A DNA stretch of 64,000 nucleotides, from contig NC_018645.1 in the NCBI RefSeq assembly GCF_000307105.1, forward strand, positions 4,350,001-4,414,000, written 5' to 3'. The DNA is from Desulfobacula toluolica Tol2. Its GTDB lineage: Bacteria > Desulfobacterota > Desulfobacteria > Desulfobacterales > Desulfobacteraceae. The notes beneath the pieces were generated by a model. The model made no database searches and was not told where the DNA came from. It saw only the letters and a list, made by a program, of their open reading frames with translations. Position numbers and translations under genes: made by a program. Shown in pieces: positions 13,253 through 26,783 of this stretch. How positions within the stretch are numbered: the stretch's first letter is position 1; every line of letters begins with the position of its first letter.

Positions 13253-14593
13253 ATGAAAAAAAGTGACATTATTATTATTGGAGGCGGTGCCGCTGGTATC
13301 GTCGCTATTAATACCATCCATGCCCTGAATTCAAACCTTTCGCTCACCCTGATCAAGGATGAAGAGGTGCTTGTCAATCGATGCTCCATCCCTTACGGGA
13401 TTGGCGGAGAAAAAGAAATTGAAAATTATGTGGTCCCCAACAGCAGTATCACCAGTACTGGAGCTGATCTTGTCATTGGGCGGGTAAAAGAAATCGACAA
13501 AGAAAAAAAAGAGGTGATGCTCCAGACAGGTGAAATATACGGCTACAAACAGCTGCTGCTGGCAACCGGTTCTCGTCCCCTGCTTCCCAAGTTGCCCGGC
13601 ATTGAATCGGAAAATATCCTGGTGGTGCGCTCTCTTGGCGACTTGGAGCGCCTCCGTGCTTCAGTCCGGTCCAGCCGCAAAGCATTGATTGTGGGCGGGG
13701 GATATGTGGGAGTAGAACTGGCCACTGAACTTCAGCAGCTGGGGCTGACCGTTTCCCTGGTGGAGATGCAGGAAAGAATCCTCCTGGCCACCACCGAGCC
13801 GGAGTTTATCTGTGACGTGGAGCAGATGCTTGACCGCAAAGGCATCCGGATGATGACCGGACGTAAGGTAACGGCATTCGAACATGATACACAGAAGATG
13901 GTCACGGCAAGGCTTGACGACGGAACGTTTATTGAAGCTGACTTTGTGGTCATTTCTGCCGGGGTTGTGCCCAATATGGAACTTGCTCAGCATGCGGGTA
14001 TCGAAACCTCCCCCTTGGGAATAATAACAGATACCGCTCTTAGAACCAGCGACAAGGATATTTTTGCCGCTGGTGACTGCGCGCAAAAGCATGCTTTTGG
14101 CACTGGCAAGCCCACACGGGGAGACTTTGGAACCAACGCGGTCTTCATGGGCAAGGTGGCCGGACAGAATCTCGCCGGGATGGAGACTTCCTTTATGGGA
14201 ATCATCAACGCCAATGTCTCGTCAATCTACGATACCAGTTTCGGATCGGCGGGCCTCACCGAGGAAGGAGCCCGGAAAGCTGGACTCGATGTGATTGTGG
14301 GGCTTTCCGAAACTCTCGACAGATATCCCATGATTGATGGGGCCGCTGCGTTTCGAACCAAATTGATCTTTGACAGCACCAGCCGTGTCCTGATCGGGGG
14401 AAGCGTCATAAAAAAAGGCAAGGGCGTGGCCCCGCACATTGACCTGATTTCCCTTGCCATCCAGAAAAAAATCACCATAGAGGAATTTCTCTGCCACCAG
14501 TACGCCACCCATCCTCAGCTGGCGGTGGTTCCAACGGAAAACAGCTGCCTGACTGCTGCCATGAATGCCATGGCAAGTATGGCAAGCAGGTAA
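13253..14593 (+). CDS. FAD-dependent pyridine nucleotide-disulfide oxidoreductase (CoA-disulfide reductase/NADH oxidase class)
   Basis: A 446-residue two-dinucleotide-fold flavoprotein. FAD binding is shown by IIIGGGAAGIVAINTI, a single redox cysteine by NRCSIPYGIGG (about Cys-44), NAD(P)H binding by ALIVGGGYVGVELATELQQL, and the second FAD motif by KDIFAAGDCAQ. One cysteine at this position rather than a CxxxxC pair places it with CoA-disulfide reductases, NADH peroxidases/oxidases and related polysulfide reductases. In a sulfur-metabolising anaerobe, thiol/persulfide reduction or oxygen removal is plausible. It has an AAGGAG ribosome site, sits under the TetR operator and ends at a strong hairpin. 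Confidence 0.82.
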   Translation: MKKSDIIIIGGGAAGIVAINTIHALNSNLSLTLIKDEEVLVNRCSIPYGIGGEKEIENYVVPNSSITSTGADLVIGRVKEIDKEKKEVMLQTGEIYGYKQLLLATGSRPLLPKLPGIESENILVVRSLGDLERLRASVRSSRKALIVGGGYVGVELATELQQLGLTVSLVEMQERILLATTEPEFICDVEQMLDRKGIRMMTGRKVTAFEHDTQKMVTARLDDGTFIEADFVVISAGVVPNMELAQHAGIETSPLGIITDTALRTSDKDIFAAGDCAQKHAFGTGKPTRGDFGTNAVFMGKVAGQNLAGMETSFMGIINANVSSIYDTSFGSAGLTEEGARKAGLDVIVGLSETLDRYPMIDGAAAFRTKLIFDSTSRVLIGGSVIKKGKGVAPHIDLISLAIQKKITIEEFLCHQYATHPQLAVVPTENSCLTAAMNAMASMASR

Positions 14594-14599
14594 CAAAAC

Positions 14600-14650
14600 A
14601 GTGCCGGGTTCATAGCGCATACTTCCTGACATATTATGAACCCGGCACTA
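14600..14650 (+). terminator. Strong hairpin terminator after the oxidoreductase
   Basis: AGTGCCGGGTTCATA pairs perfectly with TATGAACCCGGCACT across a loop of about 20 bases, beginning 7 bp after the stop, followed by TTTCTCTTT. Confidence 0.8.
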
Positions 14651-14690
14651 TTTCTCTTTCCAATTGACCGGTGTAATACCGGCTTATTCC

Positions 14691-17758: not shown

Positions 17759-17998
17759 CCATTACAATTAGGTTAATTTTTATTTTCCATACCTCAAATT
17801 CAACCGGCGCATCATGATTTTGCCGGACAAATAGCCAACAATGATAGCAAGTTGCCGGCCCGTTGTCATTCAAAATCGAACAATCCTGATACATAGGGGC
17901 CACAATGTCCTGGATATTACCATACTGATTTTCTATTGACTCAGATCCGAAAGAATCGAAACCCTTTTCTGTCGGGCAAAAAACGGGATGGAGCGTCA

Positions 17999-20900
17999 TT
18001 AAACTTGATATTTCTTGAAATTCTCAGCCTGTTCAAAGATTTTTTTGTACACCTCATCCCGATCCACTGGCGGATAGCCGGATTCAGCCAGCAAAATGAT
18101 AAGGTCTGCTTTGAGTTCAGCCTTGATGTCTACTCGTTGGCTCCAGTCGGTGTATCTGGCCTTGTCGTCAACTATGACTTTCACTTTTTTTGCAAGATCA
18201 AGGAGCTTGTCCTCAGGATATTGAAAATCATATTTGATGGTGAGGGTTTTAAGGATGTCGTAGAAGCTTTTTTCTTTAAAATCAATGCCCAGTTCGGCAA
18301 AAGATTCTTTTTCCTTTTTTATGGCATGGTACAGGTCGATAATCTCATCGGTAAAATCTTCCAGCACCTTGCTCTCAAGTGTATCCTGCTCGCTGCGGTC
18401 ATTGTATTTGTCCACCAGGGCTTTGAACTGTTTTGAAAAATCGACGCCCTTGAGCTTGTTGACCTTCTTGAAAGCTTCAATCGCCTTGGCCAGTAACTGC
18501 TGGAGCAGTTTGATCCGGGTGTTCGGCAGCTTGATCTTTTCGATTTTCGCCATGTAATCCGGGTCGAAAATATCCACCTCGGCAATATCCCCCTGCCCAA
18601 TCTTTAAGATCTCTTCGACCCCGTCACTTTGCAAGGCCTTGGCAATCATTTGCTGCACCCTGGCATTCATTTGAGCAAGATCCGGAGCATCGCCTCTTGT
18701 GAGTTTGAATATTATGGATCGAACCGCCAGGTAGAAATGGACATGATCCCGCTCTTCCTGCACAAACTCATCACACCCGACACAGATGTCATAGGCGGCT
18801 TTCATTCGTTTGGACAGAAACATGAAGCGCTTCTCAAGATCACCGGTAATCTGGACATATTCCGCAGCCATGTTGAGGCAGTGCAGCTGCTCCATGGGCT
18901 GACCAAAAAAATACAGGGTGGAATCAAACTTGTGAAAGATCGCACGCATCAAGTCCAGATGGTCCCTGACCACCACAATGGATTGCTTCACATCCTCAAA
19001 ATTTGCGGTGTCTGCTTTGGCGTAATGAGCCAGGGCCAGGTTCATCTGCTTCTTGATACCTATATAATCGATGATCAGCCCTTTTTCTTTTTGCAGGCAC
19101 TTCCGGTTCACACGGGAAATGGTCTGGATAAGGTTGTGCCGTTTGACCGGCTTGTCAATATACATGCTGTTGAGGAAGGGCACATCAAAGCCGGTGAGCC
19201 ACATATCCACCACAACGGCGATTTTAAAATTGGATTCAGGTGTTTTGAACTGTTTGGCTAATTTTTCCCGGTATTCTTTGGTTCCCAGCATGTCGTATAA
19301 AGCAGGTTCATCATCCTGGCCACGGGTCATCACCAGCTTGATCCGTTCCATGGGCATGATCTGCTTTTTTTCCTGTTCGGTTAGTTTCTCACCATCAGCG
19401 CATATCTTTAATTGTGCCCATTCGGGACGCAGAGCAATCACTTCTTTGTAAAAATCATAGGCGATTGGACGGCTGCTGCTGACGAACATGGCTTTACCGG
19501 CGATTGTGGCACCTTCGTTGATGCGTGCCTCATAATGGTCGACAAAATCTGCGGCCAAAGCCTTCAGGCGGTCAGGGTCTCCTAAAATGGCGGTCATTTG
19601 CAGGTTGGCCCGTTTGCTGCTCTCAATCGCGTAGTCGTTGGCCCCGTTATCCGCGCATTGGGCATAGTAGTCTTCAATCTGGGCAAGTTTGCCGTTGTCG
19701 AGCAGCACCCTTGCTGCCCGGCCTTCGTAAACAATGCGCACCGTGATCTCATCGGCCACCGATTCCGTCATGGTGTAGGCGTCCACCACCTCGCCGAAGA
19801 CATCCAGGGTCGCATCAATGGGTGTGCCGGTGAAGCCCACATAGGTCGCGTTCGGCAGCGAGTCGTGCAGATATTTGGCAAAGCCGAATGTCCGCACTAC
19901 ACCCTCTTTTGTGATTTTTACTTTCTGGTCCAGGTTCACCTGACTGCGGTGGGCTTCATCCGAGATGCAAATCACGTTGTTGCGCTTTGTCAAAAGCTCC
20001 GTGTCCTGGGTAAACTTATGAATCGTGGTCAGAAAAACCCCGCCGCTGTTACGTCCTTTCAACAACTCCCGCAGCTGTGTCCGGCTCTCCACACTGATTA
20101 CCGACTCATCCCCGATGTAGCCCTTGCCATCGGTAAAGAGGCCCGAGAGCTGGTCATCCAGATCCGTGCGGTCCGTGATCAACACGATGGTCGGACTCGA
20201 CAGCGCCACGCTCTTCATCAGCAACCGCGTCAGAAACAACATGGTAAAGCTCTTTCCGCAACCCGTTGCCCCAAAATAGGTGCCGCCCTTGCCGTCGCCT
20301 TCAGGCCGCATGTGTTGCAAAATGTTTTGATACAGCTTTGTTGCCGCGTAGTATTGCGGATACCGACAAAGAATTTTCTTCTCCTGCCGGGAGTTGTCGG
20401 GCAGATAGATAAAGTTGCGGATCACATCACACAGCCGGGTTGGATGAAACAAACCCCTGATCATGGAATAGAGCGAGTCGATCCCGTCTTTTTCGATCAG
20501 ATCGTTGCCGTCAGTCTTGCGCCAGGCGTAGAAAAATTCATAGCCTGCAAAAAAAGACCCTGCCTTGTTGTTCACCCCGTCACTGATCACGCAAAAGGCA
20601 TTGTATTTAAACAGCTCCGGGATGTCTCGTTTGTAACGCACAGTCAGCTGACCAAAGGCATCATGAATGGTCGCCTCCTCACGGATGGCGCTCTTGAATT
20701 CAAACACCACCAGCGGCAGCCCGTTGATGTAGAGAATCCCATCCGGTATCCGCTTTTCATAACCAATGATCTCCATCTGATTCACCATCTTGAAGATGTT
20801 GCCGCCGGTCTGGTAAACCGCCACCTCCTCCGCCACAATCAGCGGCACTTCGCCCGCCTTTGGTTCCCGAAACGCGGCCAGTTCCGAATAATCGATCAAC

Positions 20901-21214
20901 TGCACATAGAGGTCTTTTTGGTCCCGGTCTTCCCGCTTGAGCAAAAATCCGTCCGAAACCAGCTTCATGGTCGCCTTGTTGCTCCCGTAGAGATCCGCCG
21001 CCGAGTAAGCTTCCAATTTCCGAATCACCGACTCGATTTCAACCGGCGTGATGCCGTCCGCCGCATACTGCCTGGCCAGAAACGCCCGCAGATCAGCCTT
21101 GATCAACACCTCCTGGGGCTGACGATCAATTGCACCACCCGGCACATGGGGATACCCCTCTGCTTTAAGGAGTTCTATGATGGCTGCTTCCAGTTGGGCT
21201 TCGGTGAATTTCAT
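17999..21214 (-). CDS. hsdR: Type I restriction enzyme, R (motor/nuclease) subunit
   Basis: A 1071-residue HsdR of normal length. The N-terminal PD-(D/E)xK nuclease has Asp near residue 159 and the VVFEFKSA strand (Glu-172, Lys-174). The translocase has Walker A GATGCGKSF (about 315-322), SDEAH (about 418-422) and VGFTGTPIDATL, with further SF2 motifs to about residue 720. It powers DNA translocation and cuts at a distance when the HsdM2S core meets unmodified sites. It starts one base after the yhcG stop. A vestige of a second hsdR 5' end lies behind hsdS at 22335-22427. Base composition is more GC-rich than in the flanks. Confidence 0.95.
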   Translation of the reverse strand: MKFTEAQLEAAIIELLKAEGYPHVPGGAIDRQPQEVLIKADLRAFLARQYAADGITPVEIESVIRKLEAYSAADLYGSNKATMKLVSDGFLLKREDRDQKDLYVQLIDYSELAAFREPKAGEVPLIVAEEVAVYQTGGNIFKMVNQMEIIGYEKRIPDGILYINGLPLVVFEFKSAIREEATIHDAFGQLTVRYKRDIPELFKYNAFCVISDGVNNKAGSFFAGYEFFYAWRKTDGNDLIEKDGIDSLYSMIRGLFHPTRLCDVIRNFIYLPDNSRQEKKILCRYPQYYAATKLYQNILQHMRPEGDGKGGTYFGATGCGKSFTMLFLTRLLMKSVALSSPTIVLITDRTDLDDQLSGLFTDGKGYIGDESVISVESRTQLRELLKGRNSGGVFLTTIHKFTQDTELLTKRNNVICISDEAHRSQVNLDQKVKITKEGVVRTFGFAKYLHDSLPNATYVGFTGTPIDATLDVFGEVVDAYTMTESVADEITVRIVYEGRAARVLLDNGKLAQIEDYYAQCADNGANDYAIESSKRANLQMTAILGDPDRLKALAADFVDHYEARINEGATIAGKAMFVSSSRPIAYDFYKEVIALRPEWAQLKICADGEKLTEQEKKQIMPMERIKLVMTRGQDDEPALYDMLGTKEYREKLAKQFKTPESNFKIAVVVDMWLTGFDVPFLNSMYIDKPVKRHNLIQTISRVNRKCLQKEKGLIIDYIGIKKQMNLALAHYAKADTANFEDVKQSIVVVRDHLDLMRAIFHKFDSTLYFFGQPMEQLHCLNMAAEYVQITGDLEKRFMFLSKRMKAAYDICVGCDEFVQEERDHVHFYLAVRSIIFKLTRGDAPDLAQMNARVQQMIAKALQSDGVEEILKIGQGDIAEVDIFDPDYMAKIEKIKLPNTRIKLLQQLLAKAIEAFKKVNKLKGVDFSKQFKALVDKYNDRSEQDTLESKVLEDFTDEIIDLYHAIKKEKESFAELGIDFKEKSFYDILKTLTIKYDFQYPEDKLLDLAKKVKVIVDDKARYTDWSQRVDIKAELKADLIILLAESGYPPVDRDEVYKKIFEQAENFKKYQV

Positions 21215-21215
21215 G

Positions 21216-22316
21216 CTATTGCCCCTTTTCTTCCAGGCGTTCTAAATCCGCTTCAATTTCTTCAATAGTAGGCAAGCTGCCTTTCAGGTTCTCCGGCAGA
21301 TTTTCAGTCAGGGTAAAATCACTGACCCCCATGGGTTTGTTGATATCCCTCAACGCAAATTCCGTTTCAATGCTGTTTCTGTCCCGACAGAGAAGTATCC
21401 CGATTGTTGGCTGATCTGTTTCTGATTTGAGTAAACTGTCCACTGCTGAAAGATAAAAGTTGAGTTTACCGGCATATTCAGGAATAAATTTTGTATTTTT
21501 CAACTCAACAACAACATAGCATTTTAATTTTATGTGGTAAAACAGCAGATCCAGATAGTAGTCACTGTCTCCAACTTCCAGGTGATACTGCCGCCCCACA
21601 AAGGCAAATCCCTTTCCCAATTCCAGCAAAAATTTTGTGATGTGGGTGATCAGCTGGTTTTCAATATCCCGTTCATTATAAGGTTTTGTGAAGGCAAGAA
21701 AGTCAAAGCTGTAGGGGTCTTTGATGGTTTGCTGGGCCAGATCCGACTGTGGTTCCGGCAAAGTTGTTTTAAAATTGGTAATTGCCTTACCCTGCCGGGA
21801 ATAAAGATTTGACTTGATCTGCAATGCCAGAACATCTCGACTCCAACCGTTCTCAATGGTTTCATGGATGTAGAACAAGGCAGCATGTTGATCTTTCACC
21901 TTGCCAATCAGCAATTTAATATGTCCCCAGGGAATCTGTCTGATATGTTGATATATTTCATCGCCTGAAGGCAGATCTATTTGGTCCCCGGCCCGGGGAC
22001 TTTTCAATTTTGTTGTTTCGTCCCCAACCTGGGGACTAATTGAAATGTAATGATAAAACAGGCGGCAATATTTGAGATTGGTGACAGAGAACCCCTGAAT
22101 ATCAGGAAATTCTTTTTTCAAATCCTTAGAAAGATTTTTCAGAAATCGGGAACCCCACACAGCATCTTTTTCACTGATCATTCTCCCCAGGTCCCGGTAA
22201 AACTCAATTAATGCAGAGTTGACCGCTAAAGCAGCTTTGATCTGGGCAGAACGAATTTTTGATTTCAGTGTGACAAGCCATTTTTTGTATTCCGGAGTAA
22301 TATTCAAATTATTCAT
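21216..22316 (-). CDS. DUF1016/YhcG family PD-(D/E)xK nuclease, copy 1
   Basis: A 366-residue protein. The N-terminal DUF1016_N region (residues 10-160) includes ALAVNSALIEFYRDLGRMIS and FPDIQGFSVTNLKYCRLF. The C-terminal nuclease domain shows DPYSFDFLAF, DYYLDLLFYH and CYVVVELKNTKFIPEYAGKL, whose Asp, Glu and Lys form a PD-(D/E)xK site. YhcG-family proteins recur in type I restriction loci; their job is not settled. The first domain carries an extra charged insertion near residues 95-120 absent from copy 2. It is wedged between the hsdR vestige and hsdR. Confidence 0.85.
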   Translation of the reverse strand: MNNLNITPEYKKWLVTLKSKIRSAQIKAALAVNSALIEFYRDLGRMISEKDAVWGSRFLKNLSKDLKKEFPDIQGFSVTNLKYCRLFYHYISISPQVGDETTKLKSPRAGDQIDLPSGDEIYQHIRQIPWGHIKLLIGKVKDQHAALFYIHETIENGWSRDVLALQIKSNLYSRQGKAITNFKTTLPEPQSDLAQQTIKDPYSFDFLAFTKPYNERDIENQLITHITKFLLELGKGFAFVGRQYHLEVGDSDYYLDLLFYHIKLKCYVVVELKNTKFIPEYAGKLNFYLSAVDSLLKSETDQPTIGILLCRDRNSIETEFALRDINKPMGVSDFTLTENLPENLKGSLPTIEEIEADLERLEEKGQ

Positions 22317-22334
22317 GATATTTTCTCTTTTGTA

Positions 22335-22427
22335 TCAAAATGTGGTAAAGACCCTTGCTAATGTCAACCCTTTAGCTCCTCGAAAAATGGGATTTGCTGC
22401 TTCAGGTTGGGATTCAATAAATTTCAT
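22335..22427 (-). pseudogene. Vestige of an hsdR 5' end behind hsdS
   Basis: An ATG overlapping the hsdS stop (ATGA) opens a 30-codon frame beginning MKFIESQPEAA. The true hsdR begins MKFTEAQLEAA. The first 33 bases of the two agree at about 26 positions, then diverge. This marks where an hsdR once followed hsdS directly. Confidence 0.75.
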
Positions 22428-23779
22428 ACCAGCGCCTCCTCGGTTAGTTTTTCAGCTTCGGGAATGCGTAGTTCTCCGGAGATTAGTTTGGGGAGAAGGG
22501 TGTCTCGGAGCTTGGAAAGTGATGCTGATTCTAAAAATCCAGATTCAATTCGTTCGATCTTCTGTGAGATATACTCATCGAATTTATCGACAATAGAATT
22601 AGGTGGGACAATCGCTGCGAATCCGGAAAGTGTCTGACGGCTCCAATTTGGAAATGTTGATCCAGTGGTTAAGCCAAGCATCTCTGTAATACTGGATTTG
22701 AATATTTGATCCACAAAGCATTGGGATCGCTTTCCCCGAACGCTACAAACGCCACGGCCAAGGCAATATCGGTCATCACTTTTCACGAAGCGACCTGTGG
22801 TGCTTCCTCTCACGCAAACTATTAGATCACCTTTATGGGATAACTTAGTTGGCGAAGTGGTCCACTTGCTTCTGTTGGTGAAATAGGGTCCAAATTCAAC
22901 AGGACCATTCACTAATGGTGTTCCTTCGCCGTTACTGTTGTATGTGTTTCCCTTTGGTGATTGGCCCATTTCAATCAATGCATGGTCGCTCATCTGGCCA
23001 ACTTCCCACCCCTCCGGAATCCAGCCCATTTCTTCGGTGCGTTGAAAGGCGGCGGGGAATTGTTTGGCGGCTTCACGATTGGCGGTGCCATTGGCAAGGG
23101 CTTTGCGGCGGACTTCCGCTCGTTCGGCAAGTTCTTCGGGGATCGGATTACCGGCGGCAAGGGCATTGTCGATCACCGGGTCAAAGTCCACAAACCAGCT
23201 TTTGAAGAGCGCCTGCGCCACCCCTTCCAGCGTCGCATTCATCCGCCGATTCAACTCAATCTTGTCATCCAATGATCTCAGGATGTGAGCGATTGCTTTT
23301 TGCTTGTGGAGAGGCGGGAGCGAAATTTCGGCCTTTTTAAAATCCTTAAGTATCACTCTCGGAATGGCAGCACCTGAAATAAAGTTGCTTTTAAGATAGT
23401 CTAATGTTTGTTCTGAGCAAAAATAGTATTTCAGGAAGTTTGAATCCAGTTGGTTTGTGTCTGGCCTCAGAATAGCAACTGAAGAAAGCAGCACATAATC
23501 TGCTTCTCCATTAACGGTGCAAACAGTGTCCAAAGCGCTGTTTCCATCTTTCGCAATTAGGACGTCATCTTTTTGAGGTTTGCATCCTTGTCTAACTAAA
23601 AAAGCGAAATCTTCTCCAGATATTTTCCTCGCACCTGAAACATCAACTCCAAATCGGGTGAGATCCTTTACTGATGCCATCGGCATTCCCACATCTACAG
23701 ACTTTGGGCTTTGATGTGCCCCATCGGTGATTGTTGGACAAAGCTCACCGAGAGTCATGATTGGCCATTCACTTCCCAT
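22424..23779 (-). CDS. hsdS: Type I restriction enzyme, S (specificity) subunit
   Basis: A 451-residue HsdS with two target-recognition domains. The first opens WPIMTLGELCPTITDG and is followed by the conserved helical region ISLPPLHKQKAIAHILRSLD. The second begins near MGWIPEGWEVGQMSDHA and ends with the second helical conserved region (LSKLRDTLLPKLISGELRIP). It sets the methylation and cleavage sequence of the complex. The start overlaps an hsdM-like vestige by 11 bp and the stop overlaps an hsdR-like vestige, so the gene retains the junctions of an hsdM-hsdS-hsdR operon although its present neighbours are yhcG genes. Confidence 0.93.
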   Translation of the reverse strand: MGSEWPIMTLGELCPTITDGAHQSPKSVDVGMPMASVKDLTRFGVDVSGARKISGEDFAFLVRQGCKPQKDDVLIAKDGNSALDTVCTVNGEADYVLLSSVAILRPDTNQLDSNFLKYYFCSEQTLDYLKSNFISGAAIPRVILKDFKKAEISLPPLHKQKAIAHILRSLDDKIELNRRMNATLEGVAQALFKSWFVDFDPVIDNALAAGNPIPEELAERAEVRRKALANGTANREAAKQFPAAFQRTEEMGWIPEGWEVGQMSDHALIEMGQSPKGNTYNSNGEGTPLVNGPVEFGPYFTNRSKWTTSPTKLSHKGDLIVCVRGSTTGRFVKSDDRYCLGRGVCSVRGKRSQCFVDQIFKSSITEMLGLTTGSTFPNWSRQTLSGFAAIVPPNSIVDKFDEYISQKIERIESGFLESASLSKLRDTLLPKLISGELRIPEAEKLTEEALV

Positions 23780-23801
23780 AACCCAACACTCCCAAGTTCC
23801 C
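23769..23801 (-). pseudogene. Vestige of an hsdM 3' end before hsdS
   Basis: The minus strand reads GNLGVLGYGK then stop, overlapping the hsdS start by 11 bp. The real hsdM ends NLEVLGYGE and overlaps the following yhcG start by the same 11 bp. About 25 of 30 bases agree between the two sites. Confidence 0.7.
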
Positions 23802-23814
23802 CGAAAATAAAATA

Positions 23815-24861
23815 TTACTCATGTTCAAATTCTCCACTCAGCTTTGCCTCTATCTCTTCAATGGACGGCAGGCTTGATTTCAGATTTTCAGGCAAGGCCT
23901 GTGTCAACTGATATTCTGAAACGCCCATGGGTTTATGGATGTCACTCAAGGCATATTCAACCACAAGTCTATCCTTGTTCTTGCACAGCAAAATGCCTAT
24001 GGTCGGGTTATCTCCGTCTTTTCGTAGTTTTTCATCAACCGCTTTGATATAAAAATTGAGTTTCCCCGCATGTTCCGGCTCAAAATCCACTGTTTTCAGT
24101 TCAATGACCACATGGCAGTGAAGTCTTGTGTGGTAAAACAGAAGATCAAGGAAAAAGTCCCGCTCGCCTACCTGAACCGGGACCTGTTTCCCCATATAGG
24201 CAAAACCGGCTCCCAGCTCCAACAGAAACTTTGTGACATGCTGTATCAGGTTCTGTTCAAGCTCCCGTTCGTTATAATTCTCTGTCAGCGTCAGGAAATC
24301 GAAATTGTATGGATCTTTGATAATCTGTTGGGCAAGATCAGATTGGGGCGTCGGAAGTGCCTTGCTGAAATTGGTCATGGCTTTTCCCTGTCTTTCATAA
24401 AGACCGCTTTCAATCTGGTGGGTCAAAACGCTCCGGCTCCAGTTGTTTTCGATGGTTTTCTCTATGTAAAAAAAGGCTTTTGGGGTTGTTTTGCATTTGC
24501 TTACAATCACCACATGATGCCACCATGGAATATTGAACAATTGCGTAGCAGGCTGCTTCGCAAATTCAAAATCCGTATTGTAAAAAAAATACCATCTTCG
24601 GATCTGTTCCAGATTTCTTTTGGAAAACCCTTTCATATCTGGAAATTCAGCCATCAAGTCTTGACTGAGTCGTTTAAGAAACCCGCTACCCCACTTGGCA
24701 CCTTTCTGTTTTTCAACAATATCCGCCCCAAGCCCCCAGTAAAACTCCAGTAATGCAGTGTTCACCGCTACGGCTGCTTTGAGTTGGGATTGCCGAACCT
24801 TTTTTTTAAGCTCTTTCAGCCACTCCAGGTAATCCCTGTCCTGTGTAAGCTCACTCCCCAT
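23815..24861 (-). CDS. DUF1016/YhcG family PD-(D/E)xK nuclease, copy 2
   Basis: A 348-residue paralogue of copy 1. Shared blocks include TPQSDLAQQIIKDPYNFDFL, YNERELEQNLIQHVTKFLLE and HAGKLNFYIKAVDEKL, plus the nuclease residues in DFFLDLLFYH and CHVVIELKTVDF. By eye the two copies are roughly half identical. It begins MGSELTQ inside the last codons of hsdM (11-bp overlap), so translation is coupled. Its probable role is a nuclease accessory to the type I system; experimental function is unknown to me. Confidence 0.85.
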   Translation of the reverse strand: MGSELTQDRDYLEWLKELKKKVRQSQLKAAVAVNTALLEFYWGLGADIVEKQKGAKWGSGFLKRLSQDLMAEFPDMKGFSKRNLEQIRRWYFFYNTDFEFAKQPATQLFNIPWWHHVVIVSKCKTTPKAFFYIEKTIENNWSRSVLTHQIESGLYERQGKAMTNFSKALPTPQSDLAQQIIKDPYNFDFLTLTENYNERELEQNLIQHVTKFLLELGAGFAYMGKQVPVQVGERDFFLDLLFYHTRLHCHVVIELKTVDFEPEHAGKLNFYIKAVDEKLRKDGDNPTIGILLCKNKDRLVVEYALSDIHKPMGVSEYQLTQALPENLKSSLPSIEEIEAKLSGEFEHE

Positions 24862-26428
24862 AACCCAGCACCTCCAGATTCTTCCGAATCACCTCATCCA
24901 GCTTTGCCGACTCTTTCATCTGTGCGTAAAGCGCCTGGCTCATCTCGGTCATCTTGGTTTCAAAGGGGATTCCGTCGTCCTCCAGAGGCGCTGCGCCGAC
25001 GTAACGTCCGGGCGTAAGCACATAGTCGTGTTTGCGCATCTCTTCCAGGGTAGCGGATTTGCAATAGCCAGCCTGGTCTTCATAGACGCCGTCTTTTGCC
25101 TTATTCTGCCCGTCCGGTTCACCCCGCCATGCATGATAGGTTTTGGCAATGGCTGCAATATCATCAGGCAGAAGTTCCTTTTGGGTGCGGTTGATCATCG
25201 AGCCGATCTTGCGGGCGTCGATAAAAAGAGTCTCGCCCTCACGGTTGCGGTAGCCGCGCTCGCTTTCGCCTTTTTTATTCTTGGTGAGAAACCAGAGGCA
25301 GACGGGAATCTGTGTGGTGAAAAAAAGTTGGCCGGGCAGCGCAATCATACAGTCCACCAGATCGTTTTCCACCAGTTTCTGGCGGATCGCGCCTTCACCC
25401 TTGGTGTTGGTGGACATGGAGCCGTTGGCCAGCACAAAACCTGCCACGCCGTGTTCGGAGAGCTTGGAGACCATATGAAGAATCCAGGCATAGTTGGCAT
25501 TGCCGGTGGGCGGGGTCTCAAAGCCGTCCCAGCGCGAGTCGTTGACCAGCTCGTCAGCGGCCCGCCACGCCTTCATGTTAAAGGGCGGATTGGCCATGAT
25601 ATAGTCGGCCTTCAAGTCGGGGTGCTGATCTTTAAAAAAGGTATCAGCCGGGACTTCACCGAGATTGGCCGAAAGCCCGCGCACCGCCAGGTTCATTTTG
25701 GCCAGCTTGTAGGTGGTGGCGGTAAACTCCTGCCCGTACACCGATATGTCCCTGGTGTTGCCGTGGTGGCTCTGCACAAACTTGAGCGACTGCACAAACA
25801 TGCCGCCCGAACCGCAGCATGGGTCATAGATCTTACCCTTGTAGGGTTCGATCATCTCCGCGATCAGGTTGACCACGCACTTGGGCGTATAGAACTCGCC
25901 CCCCAGCTTGCCCTCGGAGGCGGCAAACTTGCCGAGGAAATATTCATACACCCGGCCCACCACGTCCTCTTCCTTGTCCGCCACCGTGTCGATGTTGTTG
26001 ATGGCATCAATCAGGGCCGCAAGCTTGCTGCCATCCAGCCCCAGGCGGGAGAAATAGTTGTCCGGCAAGGCACCCTTGAGCGAGGCATTGCTCTTTTCCA
26101 CCGCGGTCAGGGCCGAGTCGATCCTGACGGCTATGTCTCCCTGCTTGGCGTGTTGCTGAATATGGCTCCAGCGGGAAGTCTCGGGCAGGTAGAAAATGTT
26201 CTTCATGGTGTAAAACTCCACCATATCGGCGTATTGCTCTTTACCCTCGGCAATCAGCTGTGCCCGTCGCTCCTCAAATTTGTCTGAAACAAACTTGAGG
26301 AAGATCAAACTCAGCACAACGTGCTTGTATTCTGAAGACTCGACGCTGCCCCGCAGCCTGTTTGCGGAGTCCCACAGGGACTCTTCAAAGCCTTTATTGT
26401 TTTTCGGTACTGCTTTTTTCCCAGCCAT
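24851..26428 (-). CDS. hsdM: Type I restriction enzyme, M (methyltransferase) subunit
   Basis: A 525-residue N6-adenine methyltransferase. The N-terminal HsdM domain reads NKGFEESLWDSANRLRGSVE. The SAM-binding motif is IYDPCCGSGGMFVQSL and the catalytic motif is ADYIMANPPFNMKAW (NPPF). The start is set at the ATG at 26428 because AAGGA precedes it; an upstream ATG at 26449 lacks this. It is the first gene of the five-gene operon and forms the modification core with HsdS. Composition is GC-rich compared with the surrounding genes, consistent with acquisition by transfer. Confidence 0.95.
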   Translation of the reverse strand: MAGKKAVPKNNKGFEESLWDSANRLRGSVESSEYKHVVLSLIFLKFVSDKFEERRAQLIAEGKEQYADMVEFYTMKNIFYLPETSRWSHIQQHAKQGDIAVRIDSALTAVEKSNASLKGALPDNYFSRLGLDGSKLAALIDAINNIDTVADKEEDVVGRVYEYFLGKFAASEGKLGGEFYTPKCVVNLIAEMIEPYKGKIYDPCCGSGGMFVQSLKFVQSHHGNTRDISVYGQEFTATTYKLAKMNLAVRGLSANLGEVPADTFFKDQHPDLKADYIMANPPFNMKAWRAADELVNDSRWDGFETPPTGNANYAWILHMVSKLSEHGVAGFVLANGSMSTNTKGEGAIRQKLVENDLVDCMIALPGQLFFTTQIPVCLWFLTKNKKGESERGYRNREGETLFIDARKIGSMINRTQKELLPDDIAAIAKTYHAWRGEPDGQNKAKDGVYEDQAGYCKSATLEEMRKHDYVLTPGRYVGAAPLEDDGIPFETKMTEMSQALYAQMKESAKLDEVIRKNLEVLGYGE

Positions 26429-26783
26429 TATTTTTCCTTGAAATTGCAAACTTTAGGTTGAAGCATGGTCTTATTTTTATTTTAAAGGGCTAAACAATTA
26501 TTTGTACAGACCTGTCTGTCTTGTAAATTTGAACAATATCCGACCAAACAAACCACACGGTTCGAGAATTCCGTAACAATATTTCTAATGTCTGTAAAGG
26601 TATTTCGACAGATCAATTTTGTGAAAATATAATTGATTCAGAAAGAATCCGGTTGGGTTTTATCGGCATAGGAGTTAAGGTTCGTCCTTGGTCTATCTTG
26701 ACAAAGACAAAGTAGGTGTCTTAATATTGGTGCCAAAAGAACATTGACCACAAACCAGTAAAATTATCGAAAAGGATTACAAA
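26429..26783. other. Intergenic stretch between hsdM and ridA
   Basis: About 355 bp of AT-rich DNA between divergent genes. It should contain the hsdM and ridA promoters, but I see no convincing -35/-10 pair. A short stretch near 26640-26725 reads like RLGFIGIGV on the plus strand, too little to call a gene remnant. Confidence 0.4.

Follow-up and report, generated by a model that had tools for sequence, protein, structure and literature searches.

Copies of hsdM and hsdR gene ends flank hsdS in a type I restriction-modification operon of Desulfobacula toluolica and recur in related operons

In a type I restriction-modification operon of Desulfobacula toluolica Tol2, the specificity gene hsdS is bordered on one side by a short copy of the hsdM 3' end and on the other by a short copy of the hsdR 5' end. 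The intact hsdM and hsdR genes lie further out, each separated from hsdS by a yhcG gene. Such copies, termed stubs here, recur in related operons next to other inserted ("cargo") genes. The reading that we prefer, at a probability of roughly 0.6, is that stubs are fragments of the old hsdM and hsdR neighbours of hsdS, left behind when cargo entered, and that in the window (the whole 64,000-nucleotide stretch of DNA analysed) the two sides were changed separately around a resident hsdS.

The operon and its two stubs

The genes lie on the minus strand in the order hsdM, yhcG-1, hsdS, yhcG-2 and hsdR. Judged by its Pfam domains, which include those of HsdM, HsdS and HsdR, this is a type I restriction-modification operon. 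The features discussed below are as follows.

24851..26428, minus strand: hsdM, type I methyltransferase subunit, intact (Pfam N6_Mtase, E 1.9e-104; HsdM_N, E 1.2e-23)
24851..24887, minus strand: intact hsdM 3' end, the sequence copied in the stub; 11-bp overlap with the yhcG-1 start
23815..24861, minus strand: yhcG-1 (DUF1016_N and YhcG_C, PDDEXK nuclease family), cargo between hsdM and hsdS (Pfam E 8.6e-68 and 9.2e-41)
23769..23805, minus strand: hsdM stub (GNLGVLGYGK-stop), 37 nt copied from the hsdM 3' end; 11-bp overlap with the hsdS start
23789..23792, minus strand: GGAG, putative Shine-Dalgarno-like core of hsdS; part of the hsdM stub, 9 nt upstream of the hsdS ATG
22424..23779, minus strand: hsdS, specificity subunit (Pfam Methylase_S, E 1.3e-23, two stretches)
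22396..22427, minus strand: hsdR stub (MKFIESQPEAA), 32 nt copied from the hsdR 5' end; its ATGA overlaps the hsdS stop
22333..22373, minus strand: probable 5'-end remnant of an IS200-like (Y1_Tnp) transposase gene (30 of 41 nt identical to locus L041, matched by none of 3000 shuffles)
21216..22316, minus strand: yhcG-2, cargo between hsdS and hsdR (Pfam E 7e-67 and 3e-35)
17999..21214, minus strand: hsdR, restriction/translocase subunit, intact (Pfam HSDR_N, SWI2_SNF2, T1RH-like_C)

Both yhcG products exceed the curated Pfam cut-offs for DUF1016_N and YhcG_C, domains that predict a nuclease, and they are the only YhcG matches in the genome. The HsdM relatives encoded outside the window are distant (pieces 34, 43 and 26% identical). 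The operon holds one copy of hsdS; five pairs of inverted repeats of at least 20 nt occur in 17990-26500, none with an arm in hsdS. The operon does not have the make-up of a phase-variable hsdS locus, which would carry a second hsdS or inverted repeats between hsdS copies.

The likeness of GNLGVLGYGK-stop, just before hsdS, to the real hsdM end NLEVLGYGE-stop had been pointed out in the sequence-only reading, and it holds at the nucleotide level, where 30 of 37 positions are identical with one gap (31 nt at 81% in an ungapped alignment). The copy was also returned as a direct repeat by a repeat finder. As that reading had stated, the 11-bp stop/start overlap is common to both hsdM-end junctions, ATGGGAAGTGA and ATGGGGAGTGA. 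On the other side, the frame MKFIESQPEAA, opened by an ATGA overlap after hsdS, matches the hsdR start MKFTEAQLEAA at 26 of 32 nt. Both alignments end where decay had been proposed to begin.

Chance similarity was considered as a source of the stubs and rejected on the strength of shuffles and of the profile controls given below. The local alignment of the hsdM stub scores 20, a value reached by none of 5000 dinucleotide shuffles (maximum 16), and the next-best place in the window scores 14 (2104 segments). For the hsdR stub the score is 21, again reached by none of 5000 shuffles (maximum 18), with 16 at the next-best place (2101 segments). The vestiges are thus well beyond chance and nothing comparable was found in the rest of the window.

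The probable transposase remnant lies past the hsdR stub and before yhcG-2. It reads QGSLPHFD against RGYLPHFD, the first codons of the transposase, and is broken by stops. In L041, an intact IS200-like transposase gene (Y1_Tnp, E 1.4e-12) follows the hsdR stub.

Compact relatives

Relatives were sought by HsdM. At the cut-off, 33 of 145 whole genomes matched and 20 stretches were used; further loci came from named genomes (at least 80) and from viral contigs (4). The hsdM, hsdS, hsdR and yhcG genes were mapped in six close relatives and 84 loci, in one of which (L069) no hsdM was found. After removal of duplicates of named loci (L037, L040 and L042), 87 loci remain, the window included. Record titles place them in Thermodesulfobacteriota, Verrucomicrobiota and relatives, Bacteroidota, Pseudomonadota and Cyanobacteriota. 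In 46 of the 87, hsdM and hsdS are adjacent, with an overlap of exactly 11 bp in 35; cargo lies between the two genes in 28, and hsdS was not recognised in 13, which leaves 74 loci with hsdS, counting the window.

Two loci, L060 and L078, have hsdM, hsdS and hsdR in a compact operon whose junctions are exactly those kept by the window stubs, ...GGGTTATGGGGAGTGAGTGG... and ...ATGAAATT(T/C)ACCGAAGCCCAACTGGAAGC.... Operons of this kind, with hsdS between full hsdM and hsdR genes, were what the sequence-only reading had proposed to look for. Their existence supports the view, drawn from sequence comparison, that the vestiges are real hsdM and hsdR ends and point to a compact hsdM-hsdS-hsdR ancestor. 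This part of the earlier proposal stands; its other part, the arrival of hsdS with both junctions as a single block, fared less well and is taken up below.

hsdM stubs across relatives

A profile of the hsdM tail, covering the last 28 nt of the gene, was trained on the 35 loci with the exact 11-bp overlap. None of 1,764,562 control positions reached 12 bits (maximum 5.8 bits); the window stub scores 37.0 bits. A 40-nt profile had missed short stubs and was abandoned for the 28-nt one. A control based on interior 60-mers was likewise replaced by the profile null: 7 of 450 hsdM 60-mers scored at least 16 (5 of them at least 20, maximum 33), as did 1 of 323 for hsdR (27). Between hsdM and hsdS of L072 and L104 there are, besides end stubs, stretches that match interior hsdM (50 of 59 and 34 of 42 nt), and these may account for some of the high 60-mer scores.

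By profile, a copy of the hsdM tail is present in 20 of the 28 cargo loci, the window included. A match in L101 (13.5 bits, inside hsdS), which would be the 21st, was left out. Three further copies, missed by the profile, were recognised by identity to the divergent hsdM of their own operons (L097, L116 and L136), and L070 probably carries one as well; no hsdM stub was found in the remaining four cargo loci (L059, L071, L083 and L101). Where hsdM and hsdS are adjacent, one of 46 loci has a weak match (L088, 15.8 bits, inside hsdS), and 2 of the 13 loci without a recognised hsdS match the profile. Fifteen of the stubs end exactly at position +10 of the hsdS start, that is, in the 11-bp register. 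These counts overstate the number of independent events, because L041, L043 and L058 have a single event in common, as do L077 and L082.

In a more distant sample of 13 loci (HsdM 47-59% identical), a gap of more than 60 nt separates hsdM and hsdS in eight (L046, L047, L048, L049, L051, L052, L053 and L055). Two of the eight have an hsdM stub: L052, in the 11-bp register, and L053, where the stub is long and follows the 4-bp register that its own operon uses. A third, L051, has an hsdR stub. As a set, the L052, L053 and L051 stubs score 27, 45 and 35 against at most 17 for interior controls; left out of the count are a 19-nt match in L056, which lies far downstream, and a weak second copy in L052. 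The rule thus holds strongly within this HsdM subfamily and less so outside it.

Stubs also occur on a plasmid. Among 187 plasmid records that encode a related HsdM, three were examined, and one, the complete plasmid pPP9 of Persicobacter psychrovividus (L141), which was found by HsdM alone, has the order hsdM, YhcG gene, hsdM stub, hsdS. Its stub matches 22 of the last 27 nt of hsdM, as did none of 2000 shuffles; on the other two plasmids hsdM overlaps hsdS. Among the four viral-contig loci, hsdM overlaps hsdS with no stub in L137, and the other three have no recognised hsdS.

hsdR stubs across relatives

The hsdR-start profile is less clean than the hsdM profile, with three control positions at 12 bits or more and a maximum of 16.9. 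The window stub scores 23.4 bits. In total there are 17 hsdR stubs in 15 loci, a count that excludes true hsdR starts (L067 and the last match of L091) and a spurious match in L087. The stub lies directly at the hsdS end in five loci (the window, L041, L091, L102 and L130). That of L073 is weak (17.7 bits); that of L130 scores 15.3 bits, less than the best control position, yet is set apart from shuffles of the L130 hsdR. Since no intact hsdR was found in L072, the stub there may be a broken hsdR.

Where the gap between hsdS and hsdR could be measured as at least 60 nt, 12 of the 50 cargo-bearing junctions have an hsdR stub, so most entries on the hsdR side leave none. Two other candidate kinds of scar were set aside. 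Duplicated hsdS 3' ends before hsdR gave few matches, judged unconvincing (L079, L105, L107 and L122). In L065, yhcG-2 may be fused in frame to an hsdR stub, but the signal is weak (p 0.14 with its own hsdR and 0.05 with the consensus as reference).

Anatomy and stacking of stubs

Stubs have one clean and one ragged border. The intact hsdM usually meets cargo at its stop codon or within about 20 nt of it, and the intact hsdR does so at its ATG. The far border of the stub is variable, lying some 27 to 140 nt upstream of the hsdM stop (in matches to the operon's own hsdM) and some 22 to 158 nt into hsdR. The shortest hsdM stubs stop just past the Shine-Dalgarno sequence; an exception of another kind is L097, where the repeat continues well past the hsdM stop. 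In 26 hsdM stubs inspected, a Shine-Dalgarno-like core is present in 22 and an ATG in 24. The two stubs without ATG (L113 and L116) do not precede an hsdS start, and those of L108 and L110 precede hsdS yet lack the Shine-Dalgarno core that was sought.

Several copies look both local and recent (35 of 35 nt in L136, 63 of 65 in L113 and 55 of 55 for the hsdR stub of L104), and that of L119 is long (97 of 114). Others are closer to a different allele than to the gene of their own operon (L080, L108 and L110, and the hsdR stub of L112). Taken together, local-looking and foreign-looking stubs suggest that both local duplication and exchange between operons occur.

Stubs may be stacked or one-sided. 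On the hsdM side, the arrangement hsdM-[cargo-stub]n-hsdS is found in L063, L110, L121 and L130, and on the hsdR side hsdS-[stub-cargo]n-hsdR is found in L091 and L071; the stacked stubs follow successive cargo genes other than hsdS. In L091 (12884-18848), two serial hsdR stubs precede the real hsdR start, the first followed by a large two-gene unit and the second by a 469-aa gene that is AlbA-like in appearance. In L061, L073 (weak), L085, L091 and L102, an hsdR stub is present while hsdS overlaps its own hsdM.

Could the stubs be start signals that evolved independently and merely resemble hsdM and hsdR ends? Overlapping stop/start codons and Shine-Dalgarno sequences are common in operons. 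Against the idea, the match extends over coding sequence in the frame of hsdM, for up to about 140 nt in other loci, and 1.76 million control positions gave no match. The hsdR stubs are coding 5' ends, for which a start signal gives no reason, and the long, near-identical stubs of L113 and L119 contradict the idea outright. We regard it as scarcely credible.

A second alternative is that an element making a long staggered cut inserted each cargo gene and duplicated its target site. The recent-looking copies of L136 and L104 would suit such a process. Its probability is nevertheless low, given that copy lengths vary from about 22 to about 160 nt, that no recombinase family is present among the 34 hsdM-side cargo proteins, and that several stubs fit another hsdM better than the resident one.

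Genomic islands are known to integrate at gene 3' ends, as at att sites in tRNA genes, where the target gene remains intact and its 3' end is found a second time on the far side of the insert. Cargo behind hsdM is similar in that the gene is whole and its 3'-end copy lies past the insert. It differs in that copy length is variable, with no fixed-length core, in that a mirror case exists at the 5' end of a gene, and in the cargo itself: no integrase family was found among the 34 hsdM-side proteins.

Cargo and the proposed route of entry

Judged from sequence families, the cargo is defence- and toxin-like. Among the 34 hsdM-side proteins 21 Pfam families were found, which include YhcG, SLFN_AlbA_2, KilA-N, ORF6N, RhuM and PIN. 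The 69 hsdR-side proteins include AlbA_2, AbiE, Fic, RhuM, AAA_13 and YhcG, among 25 of 46 families listed.

In the proposed compact ancestor, the Shine-Dalgarno sequence and start codon of hsdS would lie within the last 30 nt or so of hsdM, and the hsdR start within the hsdS stop. Because the start signals of hsdS lie within hsdM, the shared sequence has to be doubled in any cargo entry that spares both genes. Cargo would then be joined to an hsdM complete up to its stop codon and to an hsdR complete from its ATG onward, and a ragged copy of the old end would stay with hsdS. The hsdM-side copy is probably retained because it serves as the translation start signal of hsdS, and the hsdR-side copy would be a decaying relic.

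Clean ends of the intact genes and ragged stubs fit the arrival of cargo as hsdM-cargo or cargo-hsdR units. Homologous recombination within hsdM or hsdR, both long and conserved, would set one end of such a unit, and illegitimate joining beside hsdS the other; this whole route is probable, and we infer it from the shape of the junctions. In L041, L043 and L058 the start of a Schlafen AlbA_2/HATPase gene directly follows the end of hsdM, and the three loci have one joint to the hsdM stub in common. The hsdM-AlbA_2 unit therefore seems to have been inherited as one module. In the window, yhcG-1 would have entered behind hsdM, and the downstream side would have changed at least twice, first by entry of a transposase-type gene behind the hsdR stub and later by that of yhcG-2 together with hsdR.

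In four loci (L062, L077, L080 and L082) the cargo frame terminates on the old hsdM stop codon of the stub. The cargo proteins of L077 (11523-12416, with an ORF6N domain) and L082 (1825-2718) end in REVLGYGE, residues and a stop that come from a former hsdM tail.

Origin of hsdS in the window

The sequence-only reading had taken as simplest that a block made of hsdM stub, hsdS and hsdR stub came from a compact operon and was set between the yhcG genes, changing specificity. Both stubs do flank hsdS in the window, in L041 and in L130, and ragged outer ends beside clean intact genes are what a randomly bounded hsdS block would give. The window stubs are also not the closest matches to their own genes. 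In ungapped comparisons, 22 of 82 hsdM tails are nearer to the hsdM stub than the window's own hsdM is, and 2 of 53 hsdR starts are nearer to the hsdR stub than its own hsdR; a block from an L041-like operon would explain this.

Against a single block stand the one-sided and stacked stubs, which are common, the transposase remnant after the hsdR stub, which requires a further event, and the relationships of hsdS itself. Of the 15 other loci in which all three genes are present, L057 and then L058 are nearest by nucleotide identity for the hsdS core (89.5 and 88.8%), hsdM (86.0 and 85.5%) and hsdR (84.5 and 81.2%). L060 is outside this set because its contig cuts hsdR; when all loci are compared, its hsdS core is slightly nearer (274/301) than that of L057 (274/304). 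In trees, the window hsdM lies beside L058 and hsdR beside L057, and the hsdS core is poorly resolved. The hsdS tail, tried as a tracer of the gene's source, speaks for neither origin. In L057, hsdM directly overlaps hsdS.

A foreign hsdS, judged by composition, was considered and dropped. The G+C content of hsdS (0.47) looks foreign beside that of hsdM (0.55) and hsdR (0.50), but it is lowest in the two recognition domains (0.43 and 0.45), and the core, at 0.57, is like hsdM.

The nearest relatives of yhcG-1 (L096, L130 and L121) differ from those of hsdM, hsdS and hsdR. The yhcG-2 gene is 88% identical in nucleotides to that of L058 and 83% to that of L063; in both of these loci, unlike the window, it abuts hsdS without a stub, as a swap of hsdS would explain. 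This, with the fact that the window stubs are not closest to their own genes, keeps the one-block alternative in play at the window, at odds clearly below even. Separate entries around a resident hsdS are favoured over it.

Comparison with known systems

Accessory genes embedded in type I operons are known, such as DarTG2 and, in the EcoprrI operon, PrrC (PMC3874165, PMC12707154), and the hsdS/hsdR gap has been proposed as a potential recombination hotspot for defence genes (PMC12255303). In EcoprrI with PrrC and in the RptR-RMS-DarTG system of EPEC, as in the window, a type I operon encloses a defence or toxin gene; the excerpted text of these reports describes no duplicated ends, whereas here hsd ends mark many entries on both sides of hsdS. 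For EcoKI, translational coupling of the overlapping hsdM and hsdS genes is established (PMC3510504). That overlap is 1 nt, against 11 bp here, and the latter is duplicated upon cargo entry. Gene-end stubs of this type do not appear in the titles or abstract openings of the open-access literature searched.

The scars provide physical traces of the process proposed for the hsdS/hsdR hotspot, and give the positions of the joints, the use of both sides of hsdS, and repeated and stacked entries. They illustrate a simple rule, that gene insertion between overlapping genes forces duplication of the shared end. The recent-looking copies of L104, L113 and L136 allow direct testing of the event. A broader and tentative idea, which we consider rather doubtful, is that the overlapping hsdM and hsdR ends might be reusable docking sites. 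Defence genes would come in on both flanks of hsdS, with one stub left per entry; stub and intact end would form a direct repeat allowing cargo loss with exact restoration of the native overlap, and type I operons in many phyla would be a general, reversible platform for defence genes. If so, ordered stubs would be a readable record of past cargo.

Other rearrangements beside cargo

Two further loci have unusual structures. In L063 of Desulfamplus magnetovallimortis (14114-14659, the same as L040:6105-6650), a fusion joins the first 135 or so codons of a YhcG gene to about the last 29 codons of hsdS, in an operon whose full hsdS was not recognised. In L130 (11570-14090), repeated palindromic-looking stretches of the CGTTCCCACGCTCCCGCG and CCCTTTCAGGGC types surround the cargo that adjoins hsdM.
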